Shown: positions 12,827 through 41,841 of the stretch, piece by piece
Layout: every line of letters starts with the position of its first letter
Position numbering within the stretch: the first letter of the stretch is position 1
Virus record (IMG/VR): IMGVR_UViG_3300017788_003124
Span: 1 to 47,253 of that record
Reading direction: 5' to 3' (one strand)
Length of the DNA stretch: 47,253 nucleotides
Origin: a virus
Made by a program: the position numbers and the translations under genes
Notes under the pieces: generated by a model
Databases searched by the model: none
Told to the model about the DNA's origin: nothing
What the model saw: the letters and a program-made list of their open reading frames with translations, nothing else

Positions 12827-12827
12827 T

Positions 12828-17168: not shown

Positions 17169-17170
17169 AG

Positions 17171-18817: not shown

Positions 18818-18865
18818 ATATGTTATTTTACCGTATATAGTTTAGCTTGTTGATGGGTGGCTAAA

Positions 18866-19735
18866 ATGACTATTGTGGTTGAAAATTCTTCTTCCTTTTT
18901 CTTTTCTTGCCCTGTTGAGGTGATTAATGAAGATCGGGATGTTGCATCTAATTGGGCTAGTTCCATCATCAACAAAAATCCGGCTTTCAAATGGATTGTT
19001 GGCAAGTATGTTGAGGCTGATAACGCTAACTCTAATGGGCAGTACTGGTCCTTAGAAGATTTAAAACTTTCAAGACCAACTATTCAACATGCGCCTATGA
19101 ACATGGGTCATCGTCAGCGTTATATTGTTGGAACTTATGCGGCTTCAGAGTTGATGTATCCAATTGAATCTGAGGTTAATGCTTATATTGAGACTGCTTC
19201 TGTTTTTTGGAAATACTATTTCCCAGATGAGTTTAAGCTTGTTCAGCAGGCTTATGATTCTGGCTCGCTACATCAGAGCATGGAGTGCGTTGCCGATTCG
19301 GTTACTTGCGCTGGTCCGATGGGCTGTGGGGAAACTTTTAGTTACGGTGGTCCAATGTCTGAGGTTTACTGTGATCACATCAAGAATCGTGAGTCATATC
19401 GCCAGTTAAATAATCCAGTTTTCCTTGCTGGCGGTTTAATTCTCCCCCCCGATCGTCCTGGCTGGAAGAATGCCTCTATAGACGAGTTTGCGTCTGTTTC
19501 TGATGAAGAAATGGAAAGTGTTTATACGCAGGTTGCTGCTGGTTCGCCGCATTTAGGCCCTTGTGAGTGGGAGTCTTTAATGCTTGAGATCATTAGTTAC
19601 GCTCATCTTGATGAGGTGGAGCGTGATCAACGTCGATCAGGTGCCGTCCGGTCGGTGCTCGACCAGGGCAGTTCTTCACCTTCTGCTTCACATTTAGCTA
19701 AGAGAGCTGTACAAAAAATTCGGTATAAGCTTTAA
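18866..19735 (+). CDS. Probable capsid maturation (prohead) protease
   Basis: A 289-residue protein between portal and scaffold, the usual place of the prohead protease that trims scaffold and capsid during maturation. HAPMNMGHRQRYIVGTY (H75, H82) and GSLHQSMEC (S138) are reminiscent of the His and Ser of phage serine maturation proteases, and the beta-rich stretch VNAYIETASVFWKYYF fits that fold. The active site is inferred, not proven. The C-terminal 60 residues are basic and polar. I use ATG 18866 with GGGTGG upstream; GTG 18857 would add three residues. The 48-base gap before it holds no clear signal. Confidence 0.62.
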   Translation: MTIVVENSSSFFFSCPVEVINEDRDVASNWASSIINKNPAFKWIVGKYVEADNANSNGQYWSLEDLKLSRPTIQHAPMNMGHRQRYIVGTYAASELMYPIESEVNAYIETASVFWKYYFPDEFKLVQQAYDSGSLHQSMECVADSVTCAGPMGCGETFSYGGPMSEVYCDHIKNRESYRQLNNPVFLAGGLILPPDRPGWKNASIDEFASVSDEEMESVYTQVAAGSPHLGPCEWESLMLEIISYAHLDEVERDQRRSGAVRSVLDQGSSSPSASHLAKRAVQKIRYKL

Positions 19736-19783
19736 TTAAGTTCTTATTTAGACGTTACTTGATGAGGCGTTGAAAGGAATATT

Positions 19784-20506
19784 ATGATTCTGAGAGAATT
19801 CCATGATTTACTCTTGGAGCAGAAGCCTGAAACCGCTGACCATGATGAAGATAGTTGCCCATTCTGCAATGAGGACGGCGATGATCATAATCATGGTGAC
19901 GATAAAGACAATTCAAACGATTACTCCGTTGGAGGGGGTGACATGAAGACTTATACCGAAGATGAGTTTACTGCTGCTGTAACAGAGGCCGTTACCCCTC
20001 TTCAGGCCGCGGCTGACGCCAAGGTTGCTGAGCTACAGACTGAGATTGATGACCTTCGTACATCTCAGGCCCGCAGCGAGGTGGAGGGTCAGATTGCTGA
20101 ACTGCAGGCAGATCTTGACAAAGCCGAAATTCGGGTTGTTGAGGCTGAGCGTAAGTACGATGAACTGGTCGATTATATTGAGGCGACTGCTGCCGCGGCT
20201 GAGAGTGCTGCACTGGCTGAGCTTCTTCGTTCAGAGCGTCGTGATGCAGTGAAGGCTGCTGCGCCGTTTAGCGATGATTACATTAATGCCAACCTAGATC
20301 GCTGGGTAGCGATGGAGGATGAGGCTTTTGAGGCAGTTATTGAGGACTGGAAGAATGTTTCTTCTTCGACCGCTCAGGTTGAGGAGGCTGCAGAGGTTCC
20401 AGCTGAGACTGCTATGTCAAGTGTCCGCAATGAAGACCACGGTGGTTCTGTTGCAGCAAGCGTTTTTGCTGCTCGTAGTCACGGTGTTGACGTTCGTTAC
20501 CTGTGA
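19784..20506 (+). CDS. Capsid scaffolding-like coiled-coil protein
   Basis: A 240-residue protein immediately before the capsid genes. Residues about 54-165 are Ala/Glu-rich heptad-like helix (VAELQTEIDDLRTSQ, GQIAELQADLDKAEIRVVEA), typical of scaffolds that guide prohead assembly. The first 53 residues are unlike the rest: very acidic with SCPFCNEDGDDHNHGDD, two Cys and two His that could bind metal. An internal ATG at 19943 (MKTYTEDEF) has a stronger ribosome site than the first ATG, so a 187-residue form may also be made. The C-terminal end (ASVFAARSHGVDVRYL) may contact the capsid protein. Confidence 0.72.
   Translation: MILREFHDLLLEQKPETADHDEDSCPFCNEDGDDHNHGDDKDNSNDYSVGGGDMKTYTEDEFTAAVTEAVTPLQAAADAKVAELQTEIDDLRTSQARSEVEGQIAELQADLDKAEIRVVEAERKYDELVDYIEATAAAAESAALAELLRSERRDAVKAAAPFSDDYINANLDRWVAMEDEAFEAVIEDWKNVSSSTAQVEEAAEVPAETAMSSVRNEDHGGSVAASVFAARSHGVDVRYL
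19931..19945 (+). promoter_or_regulatory. Strong internal ribosome site and start in the scaffold gene
   Basis: GGAGGGGG (19931-19938) lies four bases before an in-frame ATG (19943). It would begin a shorter scaffold that lacks the acidic Cys/His-rich N-terminus. The site is stronger than that of the upstream ATG at 19784 (GAAAGGAA). Confidence 0.5.
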
Positions 20507-24550: not shown

Positions 24551-24913
24551 GTGAATATTGATCCAGTTAAGTACACGCTTATCGCTTGGCAGGGTAAGAC
24601 GTTCGAAAAAACTTTCTATCTGAAAGATTCAGATGATAATATCATTCTTTTAGATGGATATACTGGCCGTATGCAAGTTAGGCCATCCATTGAGTCTGAG
24701 GAAGTTATTTTTGATCTTGATGAAATTAATGGTGGTATCATCATCAATGATGACGATGGTTCGGTTACTATTTATATTTCTGACGAGGACACGGAGGTTG
24801 TTGAGGTAGGGACTTACAAGTATGATTTGGAGCTTGTCTCTGCGGGTGGAAGAGTTTATTGTCCTATTTATGGCTCTTTTAAGGTTAAGGGTGAGGTAAC
24901 GAGAAGTGCCTAG
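24551..24913 (+). CDS. Structural adaptor protein of the fibre module
   Basis: A 120-residue protein. The start is a GTG at 24551, one base after the previous TGA, with GGGAGGCG upstream. It carries a pattern widespread in phage tail proteins: [20 protein letters not shown], then [27 protein letters not shown] and [14 protein letters not shown]. This pattern typically forms a beta-domain at the base of a tail fibre or baseplate. It overlaps the fibre gene by 8 bases. It most likely anchors the collagen-like fibre. The longer frame upstream (24473) is a shadow of the previous gene. Confidence 0.65.
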
Positions 24914-27035
24914 TTTTATTCAGGGCGATGAGCCAACTATTCTGGTTACCGCAAGTGATGAAGATTCTGCGGTTATTGTTGTCGGGCAGCAAGGTCCGGA
25001 GGGTTCGCAAGGCACTACTGGACCCACTGGCCCTCAGGGGCCTACAGGCGCTTTTGGGGCTACCGGATCTACTGGACCCCAAGGCTCCACTGGCGCTGGC
25101 GTAACTGGCGCTACAGGCCCGCAGGGTGAAACTGGCGTTACGGGCATTATGGGCGCTACCGGCCCCAGCGGTGCGACCGGAGCGACCGGCGCGTCTGGCG
25201 CTTCTGGCGCGTCTGGCGCGTCTGGTGTAATTGGTGCGTCTGGCGCAACAGGGGCTACAGGACCCGCTGGCCCCTCGGGTGGTGGTCAGCGGGCCGAGTC
25301 GGTCGCTACCGTCACTGACCCGTTCACTATCACCAGCGAGAGCTTTGTCGTGACCTTGGGCGCTGCGGTCACGATGCCCGACGCCGAGGACAATGCCGGT
25401 CAACTCGTCAGCATCGCTGCAGCGGCGCAGACAGTCACGATCACCGCTGCGGGGACCGACACCTTCCTTGGATACGGTGCCACCTACACCCTGAACGCCG
25501 GTGAGGCTTCGCAGTGGTTGTCCGTTGAGGTCGGTGGATCGTGGAGCTGGGGTCTGGCAAACCTAGAGAAGCCTGAAGTGACAGAGCCGGGTGAGCGGGC
25601 ATGGCTTGCCGACGCACTCGGCGACGAGCTGGACACGACGACCGCACCTTGGCTGCGCTGCTTTCCGACTGCGGCCAGCATGGACGGTGACTACGGCGGT
25701 GCGTGGCAGATCACGAACGCTGGCAACGCCTCGGGCACTTTGCCTGCCACACCGGACGGCATCGACATTCGGGCCAAGTTCTACCTGCACCGACCCTACG
25801 AGGACGACGAGTTGGCGGGCAGCGGACAGGACTGGCCCTACCAGCGGTACCGGGAGATCCTCACACAGACCAAGGCGGCTGCGACTGGCGGCGACCTGAC
25901 CGAGTGGGCGATCCTCCATCCAGACGACACCTATCCGGGGCTGTCTGAGGGCATCGCTGCGTGGTTCTACGAATCAACCTTGACCGGGGCCGCAGGCGAG
26001 GGAGCAGGCTTCTTCCACGACGACGGCAGCCGCCTCATCGGTGTACCGCTCATCGCACGCCTCACGCACGACACCGCCACCGAGACTGTCACCCAATGGC
26101 GCTGGGTACCTTACGACACCGGAGCGACCGGCATTGAGCAGACCGCTGACGGCTACTGGTGGGAGCCAGTCAAGTCGGAAACCGACGCTCGGTTCGCCAG
26201 CATGGACCCGAACGGCAGCGAAACATGGAAGATCGGCATTCAGAACCGCATGGACGTGGCGTGGATGACAGTCCACGAGTTCGGCGGGGCCAAGATCCTC
26301 GACATCCAGCCCTCGCACATCGCCTCTGCGGGCGTCGGTGCGACGAGCTTCACCGATGGCGTCGGCAACACCATCTCCACGACCGACGGCAGCATCGCCA
26401 TCCCGCAAGGACTGTCGGCAGCGAAGATCACCAGCGGCACGGTCGCCACCGCACGCCTCGGCACCGGCACCGCCAACAGCACGACGTTCCTCCGTGGAGA
26501 TCAGACCTACCAGAGCATCGCTCGTCCACCGTCGCTGCTCGTGTCAGGCCAATACACGTCAGCTTCATCGGTGTCCACCGGCAACGCCAGTGTCACCAGC
26601 AACCGGCTCTACTACCAGCCGATCTTCATTCCTCGGACAGTCACGATCGACCGAATCGGCGTGAATCACGCTGCAACGATCGCTGGGGTAGGCAGCGTGA
26701 TGCGGCTCGGGATCTACAACGCCACGAATGATCTCCCATCGACCCGCCTGTTGGACGCTGGGACGGTGGATCTGACGACCACTGCTGCCTTGAAGACCAT
26801 CATCATCAGTCAGCAGCTCACACCGGGCCTCTACTGGCTTGCTGCGGTCGGTCAGATCACGTCTGGCGCTCCGACGTTCAACACCGGCAGTCCGACGTTC
26901 AACGTGCCCGATTTGACATCGACGTTCACCGGCGTCAAGTTCGAGGCTGGCGTCACCGGGACGTTGCCAGCAACGGCAACACCGGGCACAGCTAACACCA
27001 CTCAGCCGCCGCTAGTCTTTCTAAGGGTTGTATAA
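24906..27035 (+). CDS. Collagen-like tail or head fibre protein
   Basis: A 709-residue fibre, GTG start at 24906. Residues about 27-127 are Gly-X-Y collagen repeats ([19 protein letters not shown]...), rich in Thr, which form a triple helix. A beta-rich shaft follows ([32 protein letters not shown]), then a 200-residue middle with Trp-rich segments ([13 protein letters not shown]), a repeat-like spike section ending LRGDQTYQS, and a beta-rich C-terminal head ([20 protein letters not shown]) that may bind the host. From about 25270 on, the DNA is far more GC-rich (41 of 60 bases at 25801-25860) than the flanks (18 of 60 at 28381-28440), a sign of recent acquisition. The Thr/Ser-rich repeats are a possible glycosylation target of the sugar cassette; this is speculation. 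Confidence 0.85.
25270..27030 (+). other. GC-rich island inside the fibre gene
   Basis: This stretch keeps GC near 60-68% with C and G in third positions (GAC, GTC, ACC, GGC), while the genes on both sides use T and A. It starts after the collagen repeat and ends with the fibre gene; the next small gene is intermediate in composition. It looks like a fibre body taken from a high-GC phage or host by recombination at the collagen repeats. Confidence 0.75.
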
Positions 27036-28663: not shown

Positions 28664-29974
28664 ATGGCTATTAAGGCTGGTGCAATTTTAACTGATGTTA
28701 ACGGGTTTGTGGTTGACCGCATCCAGTCGGGTGGCCCCGGTAACCTTAACATTCCCGAAGAGAAGATTTATGAGCTTGGTAACTGGAACACGGTTGCCAC
28801 GATTCGTGATATCCCTGATCTTTCGTTCGACCTTGAGTCTTTCGATGTTTTCTCAGAGTTTGAGGCTCTTCTAATTGGCAAGGCTGGCGCTGCCGCTCCT
28901 GGGGCTGCCGCTGTTGGCAGTCAGCTTTCAGGTGTTGTTGGCTCTAACGAAATCGATTTTCAGGATCACATTCCAATTGACGTAGTTTCACCGTTCAAGT
29001 CACGACGTAACGCATATAACATCGTTAAGGGTGTTGCTGTTCCGTATCTGACTCTTGAGAACGCAACCTACCGTTTTGGTATCGGTCAGAATGCTGCGCA
29101 GTCGTTCACTCTTCGCGGCGACTCCATCTACTACACCCCAGGTCAACCTTACTACAATGAGGTAACCTACAGTGGCGCAGCTGGCGCAGTTGCCAGTGCT
29201 TTCAATGGTAGAACAGCTCTTCTTTATGAGGAGGATGGCGACAGCATTTACGCTCTGTGTGTTGTTGCTGTGACCGACAATGGTGATTACAAGCGTCTGT
29301 TCGTTGGCGACGATTTCACCAACACTTCAACCACGTTAACTATTACTGCTGGTGGCGCCTCTAAGATTGCTGGTCTTGACTACACTTCACTTGGGGCAAC
29401 TAAGATTCGTGTCATCTATAGCTCCGCAACTACCGGCAGCTACACTCAGACTGGCAACAACCCCTCTGGTAATCCTGTTCACCAGAATACTTCCGTTAAG
29501 CCTGCTGCTGTTCGCGCCAAAGATATTGATGTTTACATTGGGACAGCAGCAGCTACCCCAGTGTTCACTCGCTTTACTTCAGTTCAGTCTGCTGAGGTTA
29601 CTTGGTCAGTGAGTCTTGATCCCGATCAGGAGTTTGGCAACAAGCACTATGTCGGTCAGGATTATGATATTCCTGATGTTAATGGTTCAATTGGTGTCCG
29701 TCCTTACAACCCTGCAGACATGTGGGACAAGCTTGCAACCATCACTGGTGTTAGCTCTTCAAATGTTGTTGGTCCGGATTCAGCTATTCCAGTCCCGATG
29801 GAGATTCGTATCAACCATCCTGATACTGGTGATCGTGTTAAGACCATTTATGTTCCTGATGCCCGTTTCCAGATTCCTGGTTTCTCAGGTCAGGTTCAGC
29901 AGAAACTTGAGACTACGCTTCCGTTTACTTCTGATGGTGGTCTCATGTATGTTTACAATGGTGAGCGTGTCTGA
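28664..29974 (+). CDS. Major tail tube protein
   Basis: A 436-residue protein with a good ribosome site (TTGGAGG at about 6 bases), followed by a terminator, the frameshifted assembly chaperones and the tape measure protein. This order identifies the tail tube subunit. The N- and C-terminal parts are beta-rich (MAIKAGAILTDVNGFVVDRI, GFSGQVQQKLETTLPFTSDG); the middle has an insert (about 180-300) with YKRLFVGDDFTNTSTTLTIT, probably an Ig-like or surface domain. It is longer than lambda-like tube proteins (about 250 residues) because of this insert. There is no separate sheath gene, so the tail is non-contractile. Confidence 0.82.
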   Translation: MAIKAGAILTDVNGFVVDRIQSGGPGNLNIPEEKIYELGNWNTVATIRDIPDLSFDLESFDVFSEFEALLIGKAGAAAPGAAAVGSQLSGVVGSNEIDFQDHIPIDVVSPFKSRRNAYNIVKGVAVPYLTLENATYRFGIGQNAAQSFTLRGDSIYYTPGQPYYNEVTYSGAAGAVASAFNGRTALLYEEDGDSIYALCVVAVTDNGDYKRLFVGDDFTNTSTTLTITAGGASKIAGLDYTSLGATKIRVIYSSATTGSYTQTGNNPSGNPVHQNTSVKPAAVRAKDIDVYIGTAAATPVFTRFTSVQSAEVTWSVSLDPDQEFGNKHYVGQDYDIPDVNGSIGVRPYNPADMWDKLATITGVSSSNVVGPDSAIPVPMEIRINHPDTGDRVKTIYVPDARFQIPGFSGQVQQKLETTLPFTSDGGLMYVYNGERV

Positions 29975-31274: not shown

Positions 31275-34200
31275 ATGGCTGATCAGTTTTTGATTAACGT
31301 CAAGCTTAGGGTTGATGATTCTGATTTGAAGCGTGTTGATCGCGAGAATCAGAAGAGAATTCAGCAGGCCAACAAGTCAGCTGCCCAGTCTAGAACCCCT
31401 ATTCCTCAGGCACCTAATCAGGCTCAGGTTGCTGCTGCGTTACCTCAGGTGGGGCAGGTTTCAACTATTGTTGCCCGCTATGGGCAGGCTGCTGCTACGG
31501 AAATGCAGGTTGTCGCTCAGCAGATGCGTAAGCTGGGCGGGCAGCTACCTGATTTGCAGCGTGCCCAGCAGAGGTATTTGAAGCAGTTTACTTCTTCGAT
31601 CGAAAATTTTCAGATTTTACCGAGGAATGTTCAAGCTGATATTAGTCGTAGATTTACTCGTGCGTTTGAGAAGACTGCAGCAGAGTTTGAGGCTGCTATT
31701 GCGAATGCTGTTCCTTCTCGTCGTAATGCTGTTGTTCGTGATGTTGCTAATTCTAATTATGCTGCTATTGGGGTTCCGCAGCGTGTTGGGATTACGACGC
31801 CTGCTCAGATTTCCGGTAATACTACTACTGGTCCTACTTCTGTTGCTAACAAAAATTTAGTTGCTGCTATTAATGCTAGTAGTAAGCAGATTCGTGATGC
31901 TACTTCTGTTAACGCTTCTTTGGATAGGGCTTTGGCTGACGCTAAGAGGCGTCAGATTGCGGCGATTAATGCGGCTACTTCAGCGGTAAAAGCGGGTGGC
32001 CCTTCGGGGCCGGTTAGGGGTTCTGGGGCGAGCGTTCCTTTTGCTCCTACGGTAACGAGAACTAGTGCTGTTTCTCAGCCTGCTCAAATTCAGCCTTCTG
32101 TTCCTATTGTTATCTCTGCTGTTCCTCAGAGGCCCGTAGCGGCTCCTCCTTCGCAGTCTGGCACTTCTTATGTTCCTTTGGTTACGGCTCCAGTTCAGAG
32201 TGGGCCTGTTCGTCAGCCTGTTCGTCAGCCTGTTCGTCAGCCTGATGTTATTCCACCTGATGTTTTTATGGGCGGCGGTGGTCGTCGTGGTCGTGGAATT
32301 CCTAACGTTGGAACGACTCGTAGACGGCAGGAACGTCAGGCCAGCATGGTGGGTCAGGGTGGTTATGTAAGAAATTTTGTTGGGAATGTGGTTGATCGGT
32401 TTAGGGACCGTAATCAGCGTGGGGCTGTTGGTTCTGGGGATGATCCGCTTTATCACGGAACAGCCATTGACCCCAATCTGCCATTCCCAACTCAGATTCA
32501 GCCAGCAGCAAAATATGGACGCCCCACAAACTTCGGCGCTTCCGATCCTTCATTTGCCTATCTGACTCCTAACCTCCGTGATGCCCAATACTATGCTGAA
32601 CTTGTAGCATCAAATCGTGGCGGGTTCCCTTCTGTTTTGCAAGTAAAGCCCACTGGTCCTGTAGAGAAAGATCCTAGTACGGATCCCAATGGAATCCGTA
32701 GAGGAAACTTTGACAGTGATTTAAGAACTCGTAGTTCTCTTAAAGTCTTGGGCAAGCTTCCAAATGCTGACGAAGCAGAGTGGCTAGAGTCGAACCAAGA
32801 GGCTGCCTATCGACGTAATCGGCAGCAATACCTTGAATTGGAGCGGCGTCTAGGCCAGGGTGGGTTTATCCGTCCGGGGGAGATGCTGGGGGGTGCTCGC
32901 GATAGGTTAACTGGCGGTTTTGCTCGTTTGCGTAACCGTTTCCGTCGCCCCCAAACTGTTGCAGCCAATTCCTCTAGCGGAGCGCCCAATCCCTTAGCCG
33001 ATTTTCTTTCTTATAGTTTCTTGGAATCCCAGATGATCGAGGACCTTACTCCACGCTCGCAGGGTGGGCGCGCTCTAGGACGACGGAACCGTCGTCGTCA
33101 AGGGATGCCGTTTGATCGTGATGCGGCGTTACAGAGACAGCTTGAAAGATCGCAATTTGGTGAGATGTATGGGGGACCCCCTCAAGGCGATGGTCGTCCT
33201 CCCCCCTCCTTCCTGCGGCGGTTAATCCAACAGTACACCAATCGCGGCCTCACTCCTCCCGTAGACCTGAATCGAATACCATCAACTGGTCCAGGTGCTA
33301 GACGTTTCGAGACCAGCCAGTTTGAGAAAAGAATCAAGGCTCGCGTAAGGATGTCTGCTGGAACAGACATCACCGGGGAAACCCAATACGCCAATCTCCC
33401 TATGCCATTTTCAAGGGATGGTAGGCTGAGTAGCAACGCTGGCGATATGAGTCGGATACGTCCCGCTATTGGGGCATTAAAAAGGCTTCGGTCTGTTTTC
33501 CCTGAAATTCCAATTAATTCTGTTACTTTTGAAGATTTAGGTGGGAAGGGAAGGATTGGCACAGCTAGCACCCGCTGGAAATCGCTTGGTTTTAACGGTT
33601 CTTCAAACATAGCATTAGATCCGCTTGCCTTCGGGACTGCGGCGAACCCGTTGTCGTCTGGGCTGGAACGGCGGCTGGTGGGTCCCAAGCTTGCAAATGC
33701 TGCTGTCCATGAATGGGGCCATCTTTTAGATAGAGAATCTCAGACAGGTTATCTGAAATCAAGACCAGATTTATCTCCCGGCGGCCGACCGCGCGCACCT
33801 TATGTATTTGCTCAAGTTCCAGGATACACAAATGAAATAAATAAGATTATTGAATCTGCTGGGGTTATGCCGAATTTCTTCAGCGAAAAACCTATGGTTG
33901 GAGTGGGAACAGGTTATCTTTCTGGTGGTGAGCTTTCTAATATCACTAATCTTCCTGATGATGTTGAAAACATTAGGAGGCTTGCTCTTAGAAATAAGGG
34001 AAAAACTCGTGGACAAATTGTTGATCTTTATGGTCAACAGAGAAAATCGATTGGGTTACCTTTTGATGCTAGCTCTGTAAAGGATGAGCTTGATGCAGCT
34101 ATCAGATCTGGTCAATGGTTTGACCCATCGGGAGGCGGCGCCGGGGAAGTAAAACCTTTTAAATATAAAGATGTTGCAAGAAGAAAATCTGATGACCCTC

Positions 34201-37200
34201 GTTTTGTTCCCGGATTTAGGGAAAGATATGGTCAACTTACTAAGTCTAGACAAATTTTATCTAAACTTGTTAGTGGATATGGAGCTACTAGCGCAACAGA
34301 ATTAGTTCCTGAGGCTGTTAGTAGAAGACTTTTTGGCGATCAAGGTTCTTTGGTTGGTAGGATCAGCGATTTTGTTGCCCGTAATGCTGGTATAGATCCT
34401 CAGCGGTTATCTAGTTTTAATTCTGCACAGCTTAGAGCCCAGATAAGGGCTGGCTCCACCGATGGTGGTGTTGTTGGGTTGCGTCTTTCTGATTTTGTGA
34501 AAAGCAAGGCCGTTAGGGCTAAAGACTTATTAGGGGAACTTAAAGCCCGGAGTAGTTCTCGCAGGCGTTCACTGAAACAAACTGCTGGAGCTTCTGACCA
34601 GATCCCTCCCCCAACCCAGCTTGGGGGGAGCATCCCTCCAGCGCTTGGACCTTTAGAGTTGGAGAGGGAAACTCCTTCTACTCGCAGGCAGCGTGAAGCT
34701 GAAGAGGCGGCGGCTGAGAGGCGTCGTTTACGCCGAGAGGCTGCGAGACAAAGATTGGAAACTGCTGGAGCTGGAAGCGGTTCTGGTTCCACTGCTATAC
34801 CTTTAGGTCCGACTCCACCACCACCAACCCCACTAGAGTTGGAGAGGGAAACTCCTTCTACTCGCAGGCAGCGTGAAGCTGAAGAGGCGGCAGCTGAAAG
34901 GCGTCGTCAAAGAAGACGTTCTGCTGCTGGTCGTAAAGGCGCTGCTGCTCGGGGTCGTGGTCCTAGCGGTCAACCGATCTCTATGGGTAAAGCTTACGCT
35001 CCCGGTGCTGGGGCTGAAGTTAACAAGTATTTAGATGATCTTGGTATCAGCGCTTCTCAGCGAGCACGTTTTTGGGGTGGTAGATCCTACCAGGATCCGT
35101 TTGGTGGTCGCGAGTTAAGCGGTCAAGATTTACGTCGCGAAGTTGACCGTCAGGTCGGTAGAGGGGTATTCACTGGTTCTCCAGAAGAGATGGCTGCTTC
35201 TCGCACAAGGCAGGGCGGCTATGCAGCTCAAGCTGCTGTTCGTAGAAGAAGGCTTGCTACGGGATCTCAGATCGGTGCTTTGGAAACGAATTTTGGTAAT
35301 TTGTCTGCAACAAATAAGCAAGTTGATGCTTTGAAACGCAATAATGATCTTGCTGGGTTGCGTAGTTTGGAGCAGAACTTTGGTCGCTTAAAAAGAGAAG
35401 CTGAAAAGATTAAAGTTGATGCTATTAGCAGAGGCGATCTTGAGGAAGCTTCTAGGCTTGAAAAGATTTTGGATCGTATTGACAATAGGGTTTCTAGAGT
35501 TAGCGATGCCGCCCGTATTGTTCAGGGCAGGGTTAGTCCGACAACGACAACTACTCGTTCCTCTGCCGGTCCTGCCGGTCCTGCCGGTCCTGCCGGTCCT
35601 GCCGGTACTGCCGGTCCTGCGGTTCCTCTTACTGTTGCTGATAGAATTAAATCTATTAGGCCCACTGGCTTGTCTTTGACAAAGGGAAATATTGATCAAT
35701 TTAAAGCGGCTGGTGACGAGGCTGGATTAAGGAGCTTTGAGAGGCAGTTAGGAATTTTGGCTGCTAAGGCTAGATTAATACGTCTTGATGTTGTTGATCC
35801 CGCAGATAAAAATCAGTTAGATGCAGTTGAAAGTAAAATTTTAAGATTAATTGCTTTAACTAAGCAAGCTAGAATTAGTGTAAGTACACCTGCTGCTACT
35901 GCTGCTGCTGCTCCTGGGGTTTCTGCTTCTGAACGTTTGAAGGCTAGATTTTCAACGATATCATCAAGATATCCGGCAACGGTGGGGAGCATTGACAATT
36001 TAGGTAAGTCTGCTTTGCAAGGTGGATCTATTGGGCAACAGGCTGCTGCACAGCTGACTTCTTTGAGGGGGGCGCTTTCAACTTTACTTATTTTAGCTGA
36101 CAGGATTAAAGTTAATGCTGTTGATGCTAAGGACGAAGCTGAAGTAAACAAGCTGATCGCCAAGTACCAAGCCCTTTACCAGAGGGTTCAGCAGGTTAAC
36201 AATGCTGTTGCTGCCGGTGGCGGCGTTGGCGGTCGAGCGCGTGGTGGCGCTGGCGGCCGCGGTGGCGCTGGTGGCGCTGGTGGCGCTGGCGGTGGTGGTG
36301 GTGGCGGCGCTGGCGGCGCTGGCGGTGCTGGCGCTGGACCAAATAATCTAATTAGTGGTATCCGAGGCTTGGACTCTAATAGCCTTGGCGGCTTCTTCGG
36401 CGGTGGCCTTCTTTCCACTTTGCGATACTCTTTGCCGTCAGTGTTGCTTTTTGGGGCAGCAAGCGGTATTTCGCAAAGTATTAGAGAAGCGGAACAGCTT
36501 TCCTTCGAGCTAAAAAAGATCGAATCACAGTTTGAAGCAACTTTTGGTGCTTCAGCTCAAGAGAAACTGGATTCGTTTAGAACAACAATTTTGAGTGTCG
36601 CTAGAGAAACTGGTTTAAGCGCTGCTGAGATTGGTCAGTTCGGTCAGCAGCTTTCTGCGTTGTACAGCTCTGGCGATATTTCTGTCGGTGAGTTGTCTGG
36701 CCTTCCTTTAGCTGAAGCTCAGACTCGTTCTGGCGCTCAGCTTGCTCAAACTGTTGGTTTGCCTTTGCGTGAGATTACGGATGGTTTGACTGCGGCTTCG
36801 TTGGCGTTCGGCGCAAGTTTTGAAGAGATTGGCGATATTGCAATTGCTCTTGAGCAGAAGTCTGGTGTGCTAGCTAAGGAAACTATTGCTTTTGTTGGTG
36901 ATATCGCTCCAGTTGCTCAAGAGGCTGGTTTCTCTATTGAAGAGTTTACTTCTTTGGCTGCTATCGCTCAGCAGCGTTCTGGTCGTTCTGGTGCTGCTCT
37001 GGCTGAGCAGTTTGGCCGTATTCTCCCTGCTATCAATCAGAATAGACAGGCGCTGTTAGAACTTGCTGTAACAAATTCTAGTCTTGGGACTCCCGAGTTT
37101 GTTAGTGCTATTAATAATTCTGATACTAAAGGTATTCTTTTTGGCATCGGAAAAGCGTTTAATGGGTTAAATAAAGAATCGAAAGATTTTATTATCAATC

Positions 37201-40200
37201 TTTTGGGTGGACGTAGAGAGGCTGCTGCTTTACTTCCTGCTTTAACTAATCCGGAGCTTCTTGAAAGCTTTACTCAGGCTGCTGAGGATAGTGCTGGATT
37301 GCTTGAGGAGAGATTTGCCGCTGTTCAACAGACGTTACGTAACACGTTCCAGCGTTTGGGTGAAACGGTTCGCCAGCTTGGTTTGGAGATTTTAGAATCT
37401 GGTTTAGATTCGTTCTTGAGTAGTGTTGCTGATACTTTTAGCGTTATTGCCACTGGTGTTGGTGGGGCTATTAAACTTATTGGAATGTTCAACCAGATTC
37501 TTGGTGGTCTTCCTGGCAAAATTTTACTTGCTGCTGTTGCTTGGCGTGTTTTAACTAAGGGATTTGCTCTTGGTAGGGCTGGTGTTGGAGCTTTGCTTCC
37601 CGGTTTTGCCGGTTTCGGTGGAAATGCTCGTTCTGGTTTTGGTTTTGGTTCCGCTGCCAGAATGGCGACAGGGAGACTCTCTCCTTTTGAAATGAGAAGA
37701 TATCAGCAAGGTGCTGCTGTTGTTGGGGCATTGACAGGACGGCCGGTTCCTCCACCCCCACCCCGCCGAGGTACGATGCGTCAAAGATTGGGCCAGCTTG
37801 GCGGTTTTGAATCTGCCAGACAGGCTTATGCAACTGGTTCACAAGGTCTTGTTGCCCGAGGATTAACAAACTTGTCTCCACTTTATGGAGCATTGCCAAA
37901 ACAAACAAGACTTACAGCGAGAGAGGTTTATGGTCAGAGAACTGCTGGAATGCAGCCTTTCAGACAGGTTTTTAGAGCCGGATTACAGCCATTTACGGAA
38001 AACTTGAGTGTAAGAGGTTTAGGGGGTGCTGCCGATAATGCAAGAACAAGATTGGGGGCTATTGGGGCTGCAGGTTTACAGGGGGCCAGTAATCTAAGGG
38101 CTGGTGCTGGGTCTGCCGCTGGCGCTTTGGCGCGCAATGCTTTGCTTGCCGGTCAGGTAGGTTTGTCTGGTGCTAAAACTGCGGCGATTGGTGCTGCTGC
38201 CGGGGCTAAGGCTTTGGGTAGCGGGGTTGCTGGGTTGTTTGGTGGTCCAGCTGGTCTGGCATTTGTAGGTTTAGCTGTTGCATATGGATTGATGCAAGAT
38301 GGTGTCCGTAAGCAGCAGGAAAAACTTGACGAGTTAAGAGCTTTTGCTGAAGATACGAATACTTCAATTGCAGAACTTCAACAAAAGGCTCAGGATTTAA
38401 GAAACAAAGCTAGTGGAGCAAGTTTAGGATCTAGACTTAATGCTTTTATTTTCGGTGGTCCAGCTCCTTTGTCAGAATCCGAATATGCATCTTCTTTGGT
38501 TGCAACAAGAGTTGCTCAGGATCTAGATGATGAAGAAGCAAAGATTATTTCAATACTTTCTGAACGGGCTGATGCTGTAAGAACGATCGCTGGAATTAAT
38601 TTACAGGGAGATTTAAATAATAAACGTAGAATTAGTGGTCTGGGATCTGGTCAGAGAATTCCTTTTGGGTCTGATACAGGCAAACTTGATTTTGTGCCTT
38701 ATACTACATCTGGACCAAACATTTCAAGTAACCCCTTTGATTTTATTGGAGCAGCTTTAGGTCTAAACTCGGAGCAGGGGGCAAGGGCGGAGGATCTATC
38801 TGCGGCAGCAGTTATCGATCCGGTAACTAGAGAGTTTGAGGGCGACTTCGATGTAAAGAAATTTTATCTAAATCGTTTTGGTGATAAAGATGTAGTTAAA
38901 AAGCTTGGGGATAACAAAGCTTTTGAATTAGAAAAATTATATGCTGAGAGAGGTGAAGAATTAGCTATAGCCGGTCGGGATACGTTTAATAAGGCAGCAG
39001 AGTTGATTGGTGTTCAAACCAATGATCTCTATACAGTCGTTGGTGAGGCTTTCTTTACTGAAAATCCGCTTGCTCGGCTTGAAGAAATTATTGCAAATAA
39101 AGAAAATAAGTATGGTGCCGAAATTATAGAACAGGCTACTAAAGCGAGAGACACTATTGTTAGTAAGGGTAAAAATGATCCTCAAGTTAGGGCTATTCTA
39201 GAGGCTAATGGTCTTCTTGATATAGCAGCGCAAGAAAGTCTTGCTACTTTAGAAAAGCTTCAGAAAGATCTTGGTCTTGGCAAAATTTCTGAGGCAACTT
39301 ATCTTAAGGGATTGCAGACGTTAAGAGCGGAAATTGTTAATAAAATAAAAGAAAGTACTGGAGATAAAAAGCTTCTATATGAGCAGCTTTTAACTGTCGA
39401 TAAAGCAATTAATGAAGCTGTAGCTAGTTTAGCTAAGCAATCTTTAGATTCGCTTGTCAAAATTTTAGATCTGACTCAGACTCCATCTTTGTCAACTTCT
39501 CTTCAAAAAGCGGCAGCAATACAGAGAGGTATAAATTCTGGGTTAAAGGGAAATGAATTAAAAGAGGCTGCGTTTAATTTAATTGAAAACCAAAAACAGA
39601 TAGCTTCACAGTTAATAGAGAGCGCATCTTCAAGTGAGGAAGCTCAAAGAATTGCTAGTACTCCAGTTGAAATACCTTTAGTGGCTAGACAGGCTGCAGT
39701 TCGTGGTCAGATTCAGACTTTGATTGGTGATCTTCCTGGATTTGCTGAAGACTGGCAGCGGCTCTTTGGGGAAACTTTTGACGACTTTTTGAATGGAATT
39801 GTTGAAGGTCTTTCCACTGGCGCTTTGACCGTGAGTGATGTTGTTGCAATTTTGGAAGAGCGCAAGGCGTCTTTGCAGAGGGGTGGCTATGTAGAAGGCC
39901 CTAAGGGTACGAAAAGACTTGATCCAGATAAATATGCGCCTGAAGTTGAAGATATTGATGAAATCATTCGGCAAATCCAGGAAACAGGTCAGCTACCTGG
40001 AGATGTTGGTAAGTATTTAAGCCCCACTCAACAAGTTCAGGCTCTTGCGGAAAGAAATTCAGCTGATTCAGTTTTAGCCCAGTCTAGAGCTGGGAGAAAT
40101 CAACGTAAAAGAGCGGAGATTGCTTTAAATGAAGCTGCTTTAAACTTCGAAAATGCAAAAAAGACTCTACCTAAAGAGTCTAATGAATACAAGAGAATTG

Positions 40201-41444
40201 AAGCAGCATATAACGAGGCTTATCTAAATGTTGTTGATGCTATTCAGGCAGAGTCAGCTGGTTTATTTAGTGTAGCTAAAGCTATCGCTCAAGTTAATCG
40301 TGACCCGATTGCCGCAGCACAAGCCGACCTTGATCAGGCCAAAGCAGATTTTGCGGCGGCTAGTCAAACCGGCGACGTGCAGGGTATGCGAGACGCTGAG
40401 AGCAGGCAGATACTTGCTGTAGGGCAGATTAGAGATTCTAGACTTAATCAAACAAAAGTTTTCCTTGAGGCTTTGAAAGCTTCTGCGGGAACTGATCTTC
40501 TTGGGCCTTTAAGTAAGGGTCTTTCAAAAGATCCTCTTGATCAAGCCCAGTATGATGTTAATATTGCTAGATATAATTTGGATACTGCGGTTGGTTTTGA
40601 GGAAAGAATGCAGGCGGTTATTCAGCTTGCTGGAGCTTTGGAACGTCAAGACCAAGCGATTTTGGATAGGAAGCGCGCCCAGCTTGAGTTGGATAAAGCT
40701 TTAATTCAGGATCCCGTTCGACAGGGTGAGCTTGATTTAGCTTTTGCTCGTGAAGTGCTGTCTAGGGCTGACACAGAGTTGGAGAAAATTGAAGCTCAAA
40801 AAAATATTATTGATATTCAAAAACAGATTACTGAGGCGATGAATGAGGCTAGGTATGCCCAGTTTAATTTGAGGCAGGCTGAACTTGAGGCTATGGGTGA
40901 TGATGTTGGGGCTGCTCAGGTGGCTGCTTCTCTTGCTCGTCAACAGCTTGCTGACGCTATTTCTGCGGGTAAGGGTAGTGCTGAAATCGACAATTTGAAG
41001 GCTGCTTCTGCGACTGCTGACAAGGCTGCTAGGGATGCTGTTTTCCAGAATCGTCAGGATGATTACAAGTTCCTTCTTGATATGGGTGAAATTACGCAGT
41101 CACAGTATGCCGATTATCTTGAAGGCTTGAAGACCACTCTCATCCCTGGAACTAAACAGTTCAGAGATCTTGAGGTTACAATTAAACAGCTTCGAGACGA
41201 TATAGGTGGTAATCTACAGGCAAACCTCCCAACAAGTCTTCAGCTTCCAACTTTGTATGAGGTGAGAAGGTTGAACCAGATGGGTCAAGGTGCGGCCCCG
41301 GGTCAAGGGATAGGTTATCAAGATAACAGGAACGTTGAGGTGACGGTTTACGTCAATAATGGGATGACTGAAGAGCAGGTTGTTGGTACACTCAGTAAGG
41401 CGATGAACGTCGGAACAACAGGCTTAGAGTCTCGAAGGTACTAA
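31275..41444 (+). CDS. Giant tape measure protein with ADP-ribosyltransferase and metallopeptidase domains
   Basis: The 3389-residue protein sets tail length and is normally held in the tail lumen. Order: a helical N-terminus (1-200), Pro/Gln-rich linkers, an Arr-like ADP-ribosyltransferase domain (390-505), a basic linker, a zincin-like domain (about 725-1022), repeated charged linkers (about 1127-1211), a short collagen-like AGP repeat (about 1430-1450), a long Gly-rich linker (about 1645-1690) and then a TP901-type tape measure core (about 1747-2030, LKKIESQFEATFGASAQEKL). Hydrophobic stretches lie at about 1710, 2078 and 2327. The rest is long alpha-helix. ATG 31275 follows GAGG. If the helical part packs at about 1.5 A per residue, the tail would be several hundred nanometres. 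The tape measure call is firm; the enzyme domains are described separately. Confidence 0.93.
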   Translation: MADQFLINVKLRVDDSDLKRVDRENQKRIQQANKSAAQSRTPIPQAPNQAQVAAALPQVGQVSTIVARYGQAAATEMQVVAQQMRKLGGQLPDLQRAQQRYLKQFTSSIENFQILPRNVQADISRRFTRAFEKTAAEFEAAIANAVPSRRNAVVRDVANSNYAAIGVPQRVGITTPAQISGNTTTGPTSVANKNLVAAINASSKQIRDATSVNASLDRALADAKRRQIAAINAATSAVKAGGPSGPVRGSGASVPFAPTVTRTSAVSQPAQIQPSVPIVISAVPQRPVAAPPSQSGTSYVPLVTAPVQSGPVRQPVRQPVRQPDVIPPDVFMGGGGRRGRGIPNVGTTRRRQERQASMVGQGGYVRNFVGNVVDRFRDRNQRGAVGSGDDPLYHGTAIDPNLPFPTQIQPAAKYGRPTNFGASDPSFAYLTPNLRDAQYYAELVASNRGGFPSVLQVKPTGPVEKDPSTDPNGIRRGNFDSDLRTRSSLKVLGKLPNADEAEWLESNQEAAYRRNRQQYLELERRLGQGGFIRPGEMLGGARDRLTGGFARLRNRFRRPQTVAANSSSGAPNPLADFLSYSFLESQMIEDLTPRSQGGRALGRRNRRRQGMPFDRDAALQRQLERSQFGEMYGGPPQGDGRPPPSFLRRLIQQYTNRGLTPPVDLNRIPSTGPGARRFETSQFEKRIKARVRMSAGTDITGETQYANLPMPFSRDGRLSSNAGDMSRIRPAIGALKRLRSVFPEIPINSVTFEDLGGKGRIGTASTRWKSLGFNGSSNIALDPLAFGTAANPLSSGLERRLVGPKLANAAVHEWGHLLDRESQTGYLKSRPDLSPGGRPRAPYVFAQVPGYTNEINKIIESAGVMPNFFSEKPMVGVGTGYLSGGELSNITNLPDDVENIRRLALRNKGKTRGQIVDLYGQQRKSIGLPFDASSVKDELDAAIRSGQWFDPSGGGAGEVKPFKYKDVARRKSDDPRFVPGFRERYGQLTKSRQILSKLVSGYGATSATELVPEAVSRRLFGDQGSLVGRISDFVARNAGIDPQRLSSFNSAQLRAQIRAGSTDGGVVGLRLSDFVKSKAVRAKDLLGELKARSSSRRRSLKQTAGASDQIPPPTQLGGSIPPALGPLELERETPSTRRQREAEEAAAERRRLRREAARQRLETAGAGSGSGSTAIPLGPTPPPPTPLELERETPSTRRQREAEEAAAERRRQRRRSAAGRKGAAARGRGPSGQPISMGKAYAPGAGAEVNKYLDDLGISASQRARFWGGRSYQDPFGGRELSGQDLRREVDRQVGRGVFTGSPEEMAASRTRQGGYAAQAAVRRRRLATGSQIGALETNFGNLSATNKQVDALKRNNDLAGLRSLEQNFGRLKREAEKIKVDAISRGDLEEASRLEKILDRIDNRVSRVSDAARIVQGRVSPTTTTTRSSAGPAGPAGPAGPAGTAGPAVPLTVADRIKSIRPTGLSLTKGNIDQFKAAGDEAGLRSFERQLGILAAKARLIRLDVVDPADKNQLDAVESKILRLIALTKQARISVSTPAATAAAAPGVSASERLKARFSTISSRYPATVGSIDNLGKSALQGGSIGQQAAAQLTSLRGALSTLLILADRIKVNAVDAKDEAEVNKLIAKYQALYQRVQQVNNAVAAGGGVGGRARGGAGGRGGAGGAGGAGGGGGGGAGGAGGAGAGPNNLISGIRGLDSNSLGGFFGGGLLSTLRYSLPSVLLFGAASGISQSIREAEQLSFELKKIESQFEATFGASAQEKLDSFRTTILSVARETGLSAAEIGQFGQQLSALYSSGDISVGELSGLPLAEAQTRSGAQLAQTVGLPLREITDGLTAASLAFGASFEEIGDIAIALEQKSGVLAKETIAFVGDIAPVAQEAGFSIEEFTSLAAIAQQRSGRSGAALAEQFGRILPAINQNRQALLELAVTNSSLGTPEFVSAINNSDTKGILFGIGKAFNGLNKESKDFIINLLGGRREAAALLPALTNPELLESFTQAAEDSAGLLEERFAAVQQTLRNTFQRLGETVRQLGLEILESGLDSFLSSVADTFSVIATGVGGAIKLIGMFNQILGGLPGKILLAAVAWRVLTKGFALGRAGVGALLPGFAGFGGNARSGFGFGSAARMATGRLSPFEMRRYQQGAAVVGALTGRPVPPPPPRRGTMRQRLGQLGGFESARQAYATGSQGLVARGLTNLSPLYGALPKQTRLTAREVYGQRTAGMQPFRQVFRAGLQPFTENLSVRGLGGAADNARTRLGAIGAAGLQGASNLRAGAGSAAGALARNALLAGQVGLSGAKTAAIGAAAGAKALGSGVAGLFGGPAGLAFVGLAVAYGLMQDGVRKQQEKLDELRAFAEDTNTSIAELQQKAQDLRNKASGASLGSRLNAFIFGGPAPLSESEYASSLVATRVAQDLDDEEAKIISILSERADAVRTIAGINLQGDLNNKRRISGLGSGQRIPFGSDTGKLDFVPYTTSGPNISSNPFDFIGAALGLNSEQGARAEDLSAAAVIDPVTREFEGDFDVKKFYLNRFGDKDVVKKLGDNKAFELEKLYAERGEELAIAGRDTFNKAAELIGVQTNDLYTVVGEAFFTENPLARLEEIIANKENKYGAEIIEQATKARDTIVSKGKNDPQVRAILEANGLLDIAAQESLATLEKLQKDLGLGKISEATYLKGLQTLRAEIVNKIKESTGDKKLLYEQLLTVDKAINEAVASLAKQSLDSLVKILDLTQTPSLSTSLQKAAAIQRGINSGLKGNELKEAAFNLIENQKQIASQLIESASSSEEAQRIASTPVEIPLVARQAAVRGQIQTLIGDLPGFAEDWQRLFGETFDDFLNGIVEGLSTGALTVSDVVAILEERKASLQRGGYVEGPKGTKRLDPDKYAPEVEDIDEIIRQIQETGQLPGDVGKYLSPTQQVQALAERNSADSVLAQSRAGRNQRKRAEIALNEAALNFENAKKTLPKESNEYKRIEAAYNEAYLNVVDAIQAESAGLFSVAKAIAQVNRDPIAAAQADLDQAKADFAAASQTGDVQGMRDAESRQILAVGQIRDSRLNQTKVFLEALKASAGTDLLGPLSKGLSKDPLDQAQYDVNIARYNLDTAVGFEERMQAVIQLAGALERQDQAILDRKRAQLELDKALIQDPVRQGELDLAFAREVLSRADTELEKIEAQKNIIDIQKQITEAMNEARYAQFNLRQAELEAMGDDVGAAQVAASLARQQLADAISAGKGSAEIDNLKAASATADKAARDAVFQNRQDDYKFLLDMGEITQSQYADYLEGLKTTLIPGTKQFRDLEVTIKQLRDDIGGNLQANLPTSLQLPTLYEVRRLNQMGQGAAPGQGIGYQDNRNVEVTVYVNNGMTEEQVVGTLSKAMNVGTTGLESRRY
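32205..32240 (+). repeat. Three tandem 12-bp repeats (PVRQ) in the tape measure gene
   Basis: CCTGTTCGTCAG occurs three times in a row and encodes PVRQ three times in the linker before the ADP-ribosyltransferase domain. It is short and perfect, so it may vary in copy number. Confidence 0.9.
32442..32789 (+). other. Arr-like ADP-ribosyltransferase domain in the tape measure protein
   Basis: Residues 390-505 match the rifampin ADP-ribosyltransferase (Arr) pattern: LYHGT with H394, SNFG-like NFGASDPSFAYLTPNL with Y429, an A-x-x-YAELVAS helix, VLQVKPTGPVEKDP with D466, then a Thr-Arg-Ser stretch (DLRTRSSLKVLGKL) where Arr has RTREPVWIVGEL. The H-Y-D triad spacing (35 and 37 residues) is close to Arr of Mycobacterium smegmatis (H19, Y49, D84 as I recall them). 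Codons here use more C and A in third position than the flanking T-rich codons. Target is unknown; Arr itself modifies rifampin. Confidence 0.82.
33447..34341 (+). other. Zincin-like metallopeptidase domain in the tape measure protein
   Basis: NAAVHEWGHLLDRES carries the zinc-binding HExxH (H812, E813, H816). About 200 residues later GATSATELVPEAVSRRLFG (E1009, E1013) resembles the E-x3-EA segment that supplies a third ligand in phage and effector zincins. The part before HEWGH (FEDLGGKGRIGTAS, ALDPLAFG) reads as the usual beta-sheet edge. The substrate could be a cell-envelope or virion protein, or the tape measure protein itself. Confidence 0.7.
34654..34907 (+). repeat. 74-bp direct repeat pair in the tape measure gene
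   Basis: 34654-34727 and 34834-34907 are exactly 180 bases apart and differ at only two positions, with the first 58 bases identical. They encode the charged helical motif LELERETPSTRRQREAEEAA. This is a recent duplication within a linker, likely by slippage or unequal recombination. Confidence 0.9.
35562..35624 (+). repeat. Tandem 9-bp repeats (collagen-like AGP) in the tape measure gene
   Basis: CCTGCCGGT and near copies repeat about seven times and encode Ala-Gly-Pro triplets. Nine-base perfect repeats in this linker invite copy-number change. Confidence 0.88.
36205..36340 (+). repeat. Gly/Ala-rich low-complexity linker in the tape measure gene
   Basis: GGTGGCGCT-type units encode a long run of Gly with Ala and Arg at about residues 1645-1690. 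It separates the enzyme-bearing N-terminal half from the tape measure core, so it may be a flexible hinge or a processing site. Confidence 0.85.
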
Positions 41445-41454
41445 GGGGAATATC

Positions 41455-41841
41455 ATGCCTAGGATAGCATGGACTTTTTATGATCCTGTAGAGGATGAAA
41501 CATACAATTGGGAGATCAACCCTAATCAGGGTGGCTATCCTAGTCGAAATAAAAATATTCTTTTTGAGGCTACCGCTGCACCTAACGGTCAGACTGTGGC
41601 TCAGGAAGGTAGGGATACCCCTGAAACGTTTTCTTTCTCTGGGGTTATTTTAACTGAGGGCCAGTTTAATACTTTAAACTCTTGGTATGAGAAGCGTAAT
41701 CAGATTCTCTTAACCGATGATCTTGGCCGACAGTTTTGGATTTATATTAAAACGTTTAATCCGACGCGTCAGCGTTCAGGCAAGTATCCTTGGCGACATG
41801 ATTATACTATTGATGCGATTATTTTGGATTTTTCGTCATGA
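41455..41841 (+). CDS. Distal tail-type protein
   Basis: A 128-residue protein right after the tape measure gene (AGGGGA before ATG). It is beta-rich with a central FSFSGVILTEGQFNTLNSWY stretch and ends SGKYPWRHDYTIDAIILDF, patterns seen in short distal-tail or minor tail proteins that sit on the tube end. The next gene starts within its stop codon (ATGA). A Dit-like role is inferred from position and size. Confidence 0.68.
   Translation: MPRIAWTFYDPVEDETYNWEINPNQGGYPSRNKNILFEATAAPNGQTVAQEGRDTPETFSFSGVILTEGQFNTLNSWYEKRNQILLTDDLGRQFWIYIKTFNPTRQRSGKYPWRHDYTIDAIILDFSS

Follow-up and report, generated by a model that had tools for sequence, protein, structure and literature searches.

An Arr-like ADP-ribosyltransferase domain in the variable N-terminal region of a phage tape measure protein

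Introduction

Some phages inject ADP-ribosyltransferases (ARTs) into their hosts (PMC5512222, PMC9503650). The established virion ART that modifies the host RNA polymerase is Alt of phage T4, which is carried in the virion and enters with the DNA (PMC5512222, PMC7824862). Here we report an Arr-like ART domain in another kind of virion protein, a 3389-residue tape measure protein (TMP) encoded by the IMG/VR virus record IMGVR_UViG_3300017788_003124. We analysed positions 1 to 47,253 of that record, and this whole stretch of 47,253 nucleotides is called the window below. Whereas the phage head packages Alt as a protein of its own, the ART of the window forms part of the tail tape.

The polyvalent proteins described by Iyer et al. 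(2017, PMC5512222) are large, have multiple domains and are presumed to enter the host along with the DNA, and H-Y-D ARTs and zincin peptidases are named there as common domains. The locus studied here differs in its carrier, which is a TMP, and in its best profile, which is Arr-ms with no Tox-ART-HYD family listed; the terms 'rifampin' and 'tape measure' are both absent from that paper. Polyvalent proteins hold several effector domains. The window protein has an ART recognised by profile and a putative second domain (HExxH) at motif level, and its delivery with the DNA would follow by analogy from the biology of TMPs.

ARTs fused to structural proteins of the virion have been described as MuF-VIP2 in Microbacterium phages and in Stenotrophomonas phage AXL1 (PMC7302621, PMC9206674). 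There, a VIP2-type ART is joined to the head protein MuF, while in the window an Arr-type ART lies in a TMP. In contractile injection systems of Streptomyces, Tme and Sle1 are TMP-like proteins of a tail-like tube that carry a functional domain (PMC11126660, PMC13277306). In Tme it is an endonuclease (PMC11126660), and in Sle1 and its relatives the functional domains are exchangeable and diverse (PMC13277306). These systems are bacterial and contractile, with the domain at the C-terminus, whereas the window encodes a phage protein whose cargo, an ART, lies near the N-terminus. The term 'ADP-ribosyl' is absent from PMC13277306; the same source mentions that motifs at the C-terminus of some actinobacterial phage TMPs may have a host-modulating role. 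For the 3389-aa protein, three Pfam matches were listed up to E 10, and neither MuF nor the Tme-type DUF4157 was among them; DUF4157 is also lacking in Sle1-type effectors, as far as PMC13277306 describes them. Finally, a TMP was described whose lysin domain is unfolded in the tube and active only after release (PMC7291167). Lysin domains of TMPs serve entry through the wall, whereas the targets of an ART would be molecules of the host.

The Arr family itself (Arr-ms, 2HW2; Arr-2, 9IBA; PF12120) consists of small stand-alone enzymes. The window domain is like them in profile, predicted fold, the HGT motif, the Y and D residues and the N-F of a loop, but it is part of a 3389-aa virion protein and its rifampin site is changed. 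Among the matches listed from the open-licence PubMed Central literature, we came across no description of an ART within the TMP of a phage. The ART superfamily, injected ARTs and TMP-like effectors are all known, and what appears new, in that we did not find it described, is their combination and the position of the domain.

Results

A domain of the Arr family within the tape measure protein

The initial annotation placed an Arr-like ART domain at 32442-32789, i.e., codons 390-505 of the TMP open reading frame (ORF), and the profile of the family recognises it there. On a 143-aa piece of the protein, Pfam Arr-ms (PF12120, curated cut-off 25 bits) scored 31.2 bits (E 2.5e-7) over residues 393-495, and a six-frame search of the record gave 31.5 bits, also above the cut-off. 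Against the whole 3389-aa protein the score was 24.7 bits (E 2.7e-5), just below it. A second profile, built without the window from Arr-ms and 76 genome Arr proteins, gave the domain 43.5 bits, compared with 7.6 bits for the highest-scoring of 2000 shuffles and -1.9 for the sequence read backwards (in this control, a score was reported for 1321 of 2002 sequences). Across the six frames of the window, the TMP ORF was its only match. The kinship to Arr is one detectable with profiles, since a single-sequence phmmer search of the PDB yielded Arr-2 as the sole match at E 0.21.

Identity of the domain is 29-32% to four plasmid Arr proteins and 26-39% to the 25 relatives gathered in an alignment termed A4. 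A profile search of the PDB with A4 retrieved 2hw2, 9iaf and 9iba (E 1e-49 to 5e-43). In the alignment to 2hw2, H19, Y49 and D84 of Arr-ms fall on conserved columns that hold H394, Y429 and D466, the three residues that had been named at these very positions. The catalytic side of the domain (H-Y-D and HGT) is kept. The three residues adjoin one another in Arr-ms (PMC6092378), and from the alignment their window counterparts should likewise cluster in a pocket.

An AlphaFold2 model built on A4 (26 sequences, Arr relatives included) had a mean pLDDT of 75.7, with 7 of 16 ten-residue blocks at 85-92; the blocks of H394, D466 and Y429 reached 91, 85 and 70, respectively. Its strands cover model residues 13-19 (containing H394), 49-52 (Y429), 72-80 and 110-115. 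Foldseek returned three PDB hits at E <= 0.001, all of them Arr: 2hw2 (5.9e-7), 9iaf (7.2e-7) and 9iba (6.2e-5). Arr structures also took the top rows in VIA-align (Z 10.1 for 9iaf, 9.6 for 9iba and 9.5 for 2hw2; rmsd 3.6-4.5 over 101-110 residues), followed by the tRNA 2'-phosphotransferase Tpt1 (Z 8.0) and, at lower Z, by cholera- and pertussis-type ARTs, with which the superfamily fold is in common. The predicted fold thus matches that of Arr, whose structures rank first in both searches. Taken together with PF12120 above its cut-off and the alignment of H-Y-D, it bears out an Arr-like domain within the TMP.

The NAD site is largely kept and the rifampin site is changed

Residues of the NAD and rifampin sites of Arr are listed in PMC6092378, and we compared them in an alignment of Arr-ms, the 76 genome Arr proteins, six viral domains and the window domain. 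On the NAD side, the window keeps H19, G20, T21, N38, F39, Y49 and D84 of Arr-ms, and the equivalents of the H, Y and D residues and of G395 and T396 are identical in 76 out of 76 genome Arr. The SN[YF] NAD loop reads TNF in the window, with N and F kept and T in place of S37. At that position the genome Arr have S (69), P (5) or A (2), and T in none.

At the rifampin site, none of the eight alignable positions (86, 87, 88, 90, 91, 92, 96 and 99) is kept. N86, V87, T88, K90, K91, L92, P96 and S99 of Arr-ms are replaced by S, T, D, N, G, R, F and D, and at all eight positions the window residue is absent both from Arr-ms and from the residues listed for the 76 genome Arr. The latter hold N at 86 (75), L at 87 (75), T at 88 (75), K/Q/R at 90 (74), K/R at 91 (76), F/Y at 92 (75), P at 96 (71) and S at 99 (75); they too deviate from Arr-ms at 87, 92 and 139. 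Position 9 of the site lies outside the compared stretch, and six C-terminal positions (M126, L130, L133, 139-141) do not align with the window. F39, which belongs to both the rifampin site and the NAD loop, is kept. Positions 88 and 90 contact rifampin via the backbone (PMC6092378). Additionally, the loop of the window has a one-residue insertion, so the alignment of the loop may shift.

This comparison bears on rifamycin resistance, by which the phage would shield its host or itself from rifamycin-like antibiotics. The family match by PF12120 fits such a role. Arr-family genes are also reported from Microbacterium and Gordonia phages and from Sinorhizobium phage PBC5, where phage Arr genes were read as antibiotic protection or possibly anti-immunity, with rifamycin resistance proposed for those of Microbacterium and Gordonia phages (PMC9503650). 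However, every drug-site residue that can be aligned (8/8, the C-terminal ones being unalignable) is changed in the window, and fusion to a virion protein would seem a poor route to detoxification. Judging by the pocket, we regard resistance as a very unlikely function. Since the drug-site residues are changed, rifamycin is probably not the substrate, and the domain is probably an Arr-like ART with another acceptor.

The carrier gene is a tape measure protein gene

Three lines of evidence identify the 3389-aa ORF as a TMP: its match to PHROG 28, its homology to GX15bay and its position between conserved tail-region genes. PHROG 28, 'tail length tape measure protein', matches residues 1755-2121 (E 1.4e-8). 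The 'minor tail protein' of GX15bay (Caudovirales), which itself matches PF10145 PhageMin_Tail (E 5.3e-15), shows 30% identity to the window TMP over 12% of the 2995-aa query. Upstream lies a conserved 436-aa gene, presumed to encode the major tail protein, with an identity of 88% to L099, 79% to L002, 64% to L102 (all related viral records) and 45% to GX15bay; it had no PHROG match at E 0.01 and no Pfam match at E 0.05.

The initial annotation also took a codon usage distinct from the rest of the gene as a sign of acquisition. That part found no support, and what stands of the overall interpretation is an Arr-family domain in a real TMP. GC is 0.480 in the domain and 0.470 in the gene, GC3 is 0.353 against 0.320 +/- 0.074 in 116-codon windows of the gene, and the codon likelihood of the domain ranks 24 from the low end among 328 windows.

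The same values weigh against a chimeric contig. If a bacterial arr gene had been fused in frame to the TMP during metagenome assembly, one would expect a single contig and no second copy, as we have here. However, one frame stays open across 3389 codons, GC, GC3 and codon use match the rest of the gene, and identity to the genome Arr loci is at most 40% (best 80 of at least 264 confirmed relatives). We give hardly any credence to such an artefact.

A TMP family with a variable region before its core

With the 436-aa gene as bait, we obtained 33 loci of related viral records, 31 of them besides the L002 and L003 records. A census of TMPs covered 25 candidate sequences, namely 22 of the 31 loci together with the window, L002 and GX15bay. 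It omits L113, L114, L115, L117, L118, L128, L132 and L133, for which no TMP-sized downstream ORF was listed, and L131, whose ORFs are the same as those of L130. A profile of the conserved core, built from the window, L002, L102 and GX15bay, recognised 17 of the 25 candidates (the four used to build it included), the core of L116 being cut by the end of the locus.

In 16 TMP sequences, between 245 and 3974 residues precede the core, the frames of the 22 loci beginning after a stop codon and thus being perhaps slightly too long. There are 245-326 residues in L119, L120 and L130, 439-479 in L134, L135, L136 and L138, 666 in GX15bay, 888 in L111, 950 in L137, 1218 in L125, 1276 in L002, 1441 in L127, 1716 in the window, 2420 in L124 and 3974 in L102; values of L119/L120 and of L135/L138 form similar pairs. 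The N-terminal module, by contrast with this varying length, is shared. In blastp it has 31% identity to L002 (E 4.9e-16) and 60% to L099 across residues 2-268, and a profile of the modules of the window, L002, L102 and L099 also finds L110 (E 5.8e-16). The variable part therefore sits between module and core, and we infer that this region takes up exchangeable cargo. The frame of the initial annotation can be widened accordingly: the Arr-like domain occupies the variable N-terminal region of a TMP family.

Variation in the length before the core would also fit a structural spacer, in which a captured Arr-derived domain serves as an element of tape length or assembly without catalysis. The domain has a long tree branch and there is no second copy to gauge selection, both of which fit a spacer as well. 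On the other hand, the catalytic triad and HGT are kept at 29-32% identity to plasmid Arr while the drug-site residues are changed, a pattern of a working enzyme with an altered acceptor rather than of decay. A mere spacer is, in our opinion, unlikely.

The Arr-like domain of the window is flanked on both sides by GQGG[YF][VI]R motifs, and RQGGY occurs at about residue 1312. The TMP of L102, with some 3700 residues between N-terminal module and core, carries GN[AS]GG[FY] separators at 374, 455, 862, 1501, 2012, 2329 and 2764 and the variant GDAGGF at 3145. Compared with shuffles, GQGG[FY][IV] was seen 2 times in the window against 0.004 expected, and LxGN[AS]GG[FY] 6 times in L102 against 0.000 expected; both motifs were picked post hoc, so these counts are descriptive and no proof. 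No separators of either type (GN[AS]GG[FY] or GQGG) were found in the TMP of L002. At the DNA level, the two window motifs share an 11-base repeat with one mismatch, which fits module exchange, yet may be chance.

The region of L102 before the core also contains HExxH at 2595 and 3342, and one of its segments matches GNAT weakly (E 0.0072, below cut-off). A second ART was suspected near residue 2849 of this TMP and was dropped, as neither Pfam nor the PDB supported it. The gene itself lies in the locus L106 of the L102 record, runs from 17279 down to 1 on the - strand and stays open for at least 5759 residues to the contig end. In L110, a TMP-like frame of at least 2523 residues (12641-20209) has HExxH at 934 and 2068; a Pfam search at E 0.5 gave nothing for it, and the core is not reached. 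The 2420 residues that precede the core in L124 (12592-19851) show no Pfam domain above cut-off.

A putative metallopeptidase region

Downstream of the Arr-like domain, the variable region of the window has a HEWGH motif. HExGHxxD is invariant in four out of four modules of the window, L002 and L102, and a later glutamate of the window aligns with a glutamate of L002 and of one of the two L102 modules. In an hhalign comparison the similarity was weak (probability 9%, E 0.0036 for one comparison). The HExxH region of the window had no Pfam match, and no convincing PDB match was found for the module. The L002 module was the only one to reach DUF6782 (E 1.1e-4, below cut-off).

Other settings of Arr-like domains

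We looked for a second Arr domain in a TMP by several routes. In a single-protein scan of viral contigs, 0 of 10 candidate stretches were confirmed; with an Arr alignment (A3), 4 of 135 were confirmed, none of them in a frame recognisable as a TMP. Scans with the TMP core, the TMP C-terminus and the downstream gene led to the L002 and L003 records only. In INPHARED, tblastn with the window domain gave no match, and four other Arr queries found only contigs of Acinetobacter phage MD-2021a, two Vibrio phages and, weakly, one human-gut record. A structure search of BFVD gave 12 hits at E <= 0.001; none of the best 50 of 361 rows was named tape measure protein, most being unnamed or uncharacterised.

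PF12120 was present in 30 of 396 genomes sampled from the phylum to which G038 belongs (the genome of L053, Actinobacteria bacterium), with 403 aa as the longest frame that holds it. Frames of the Arr relatives in the genome collection measure 131 to 720 aa (best 80 of at least 264 confirmed). Two genomes, G084 and G345, have two tandem PF12120 domains in one frame (216 and 301 aa). The TMP core gave no matches in the 396 genomes, a search without a positive control and so uninformative.

Three IMG/VR records, L014, L016 and L017, have Arr-ms domains in large frames (1005, 1403, 1358 and 1765 aa). NUDIX domains occur in these frames in L014 and L017 and a 2'-5' RNA ligase domain in L014, and the proteins resemble the polyvalent proteins as described in PMC5512222. 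One to three Arr-ms stretches each were seen at L014 670-7676, L016 2238-6311 and L017 1809-7103; the L017 record has seven PF12120 matches across four frames, two of them below cut-off.

Features and neighbouring genes of the window

The coordinates of the features are given in Table 1. At 887-2959, the window encodes a ribonucleotide reductase closest to those of Actinomycetia phage DSL-LC01 (49%) and mycobacteriophage Gaia (48%), and this similarity only hints at a host among Actinomycetia. A terminase-like gene of 1262 aa (12828-16616) apparently has two inteins: PF14890 Intein_splicing matches in two stretches (E 1e-18), together with LAGLIDADG homing domains, Hint_2 near residues 65-109 and PT-HINT at 536-606. 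The 709-aa tail fibre gene (24906-27035), with collagen-like PHROG matches, is repetitive and variable between relatives.

Table 1. Positions of the Arr-like domain, its carrier gene and further features in the window
Feature	Position	Strand	Evidence
TMP gene, 3389 aa	31275..41444	+	ORF; PHROG 28; homologues L002, L102, GX15bay
N-terminal module, residues 1-188	31275..31838	+	common to L002, L102, L099, L110
Separator-like motif 1, GQGGYVR, residues 360-366	32352..32372	+	motif picked after inspection
Arr-like ART domain, residues 393-495	32451..32759	+	PF12120, alignments, model, fold search
H394 codon (= Arr-ms H19)	32454..32456	+	alignment to Arr-ms
Y429 codon (= Arr-ms Y49)	32559..32561	+	alignment to Arr-ms
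D466 codon (= Arr-ms D84)	32670..32672	+	alignment to Arr-ms
Separator-like motif 2, GQGGFIR, residues 527-533	32853..32873	+	motif picked after inspection
Putative zincin-like metallopeptidase region, residues 656-1110	33240..34604	+	HExxH motif level
HEWGH, residues 812-816	33708-33722	+	motif
Conserved TMP core, residues 1717-2093	36423..37553	+	62% to L002, 37% to L102; core profile
Conserved TMP C-terminal region, residues 2309-3389	38199..41441	+	45% to L002
Conserved 436-aa gene upstream of TMP	28664..29974	+	bait for related phages
Conserved 128-aa gene directly downstream of TMP	41455..41841	+	76% L002, 45% GX15bay
Sigma factor gene	56-832		PHROG 351, E 4.1e-42

Discussion

We consider it rather probable that the TMP of this phage is a carrier of host-directed enzymes and that the Arr-derived ART, delivered with it, would act on a host target. 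The initial annotation had already suggested a pre-packed enzyme injected into the cell, and the idea is in line with T4 Alt, polyvalent proteins, MuF-VIP2 and TMP-related effectors as they are described. Ejection of the domain, its folding afterwards and its activity are taken by analogy from such systems.

The proposed course of events relies on studied siphophages, in which the TMP is released in the direction of the target cell (PMC11445458, PMC7291167). In JBD30, the virion has three TMP molecules, their C-termini are located in the baseplate and they leave the tube at infection (PMC11445458). The cargo region of the window TMP, between N-terminal module and core, would hold the Arr-derived ART, bounded by GQGG[YF][VI]R linkers, together with a HExxH region that may be a metallopeptidase. 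The small ART domain would be threaded in the tail tube near the head end, probably unfolded, and would be expelled with the TMP at infection, leaving last. In the cell it might fold and meet host NAD+ and its targets as the DNA enters. Early in infection, a host molecule other than rifamycin would then be ADP-ribosylated in the manner of T4 Alt. Given that a sigma factor is among the phage's own genes, the RNA polymerase of the host would be a sensible target to consider first. The HExxH module may free the cargo; zincin domains of polyvalent proteins were proposed to release effectors (PMC5512222).

The enzyme could instead serve inside the cell that makes the phage, or act on the virion (tail self-modification or late host shut-down, for instance), and not be injected at all. 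The gene is placed among virion genes and its product is presumably made late, which fits such a use. Yet in studied siphophages the TMP moves out towards the cell to be infected (PMC11445458, PMC7291167), and a location in the TMP may thus entail delivery. In our assessment, a use without injection is quite improbable.

Several observations weigh against an Arr-derived enzyme delivered by the TMP. Only one TMP with an Arr domain was found, the window's. PF12120 was above cut-off in 0 of the 31 related viral records, many of which are fragments, and in neither of the two further ones (L002 and L003), the TMP of L002 being complete and without Arr; one match below cut-off was seen in the L127 record (799-aa frame, E 0.023). 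L099, the closest relative by the bait gene, stops at about TMP residue 304, upstream of the Arr site, and so provides no second copy on which selection on the domain could be gauged. The domain itself sits on a very long tree branch (2.8 changes per site) and in no well-supported set. As for the fold, the Foldseek superposition on Arr is loose (TM 0.46-0.59, rmsd 7.2-7.7; for 2hw2, TM 0.53 and rmsd 7.7), and AlphaFold2 without an alignment yields no usable model (mean pLDDT 54.4). The Arr relatives in the model's alignment favour an Arr fold, and the fold match is thus support and not independent proof. Additionally, no Pfam domain above cut-off was found in the N-terminal regions of L002, L102, L110, L124, L127, L125, L137 and L111, and the metallopeptidase of the window is assigned at motif level, as a putative one that is not confirmed.

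A broader version of the proposal can be offered tentatively, as a possibility a little short of even. The N-terminal part of these TMPs may be an exchangeable magazine of host-directed enzymes, split by GN[AS]GG[FY]/GQGG[YF] separators. The window would have loaded an ART that takes a new acceptor and modifies a host target at DNA entry, and its relative GNAT-like, HExxH and other segments (about 3700 residues).

Published phage effectors that enter with the genome are, as far as they were covered here, mostly head proteins. If the TMP indeed carries an enzyme, the tail ruler would itself be an effector delivery device and would join T4 Alt, polyvalent proteins and the TMP-like effectors of contractile systems. 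With each TMP molecule, a dose of enzyme would arrive at the point of entry, ahead of or with the DNA and at a time when no phage gene has yet been expressed. An ART derived from Arr but changed at the drug site would show a resistance family reused on another acceptor. Such cargo could also explain why some TMPs of the group are far longer than others, and it would point to a place in phage genomes in which to look for anti-host and anti-defence enzymes.

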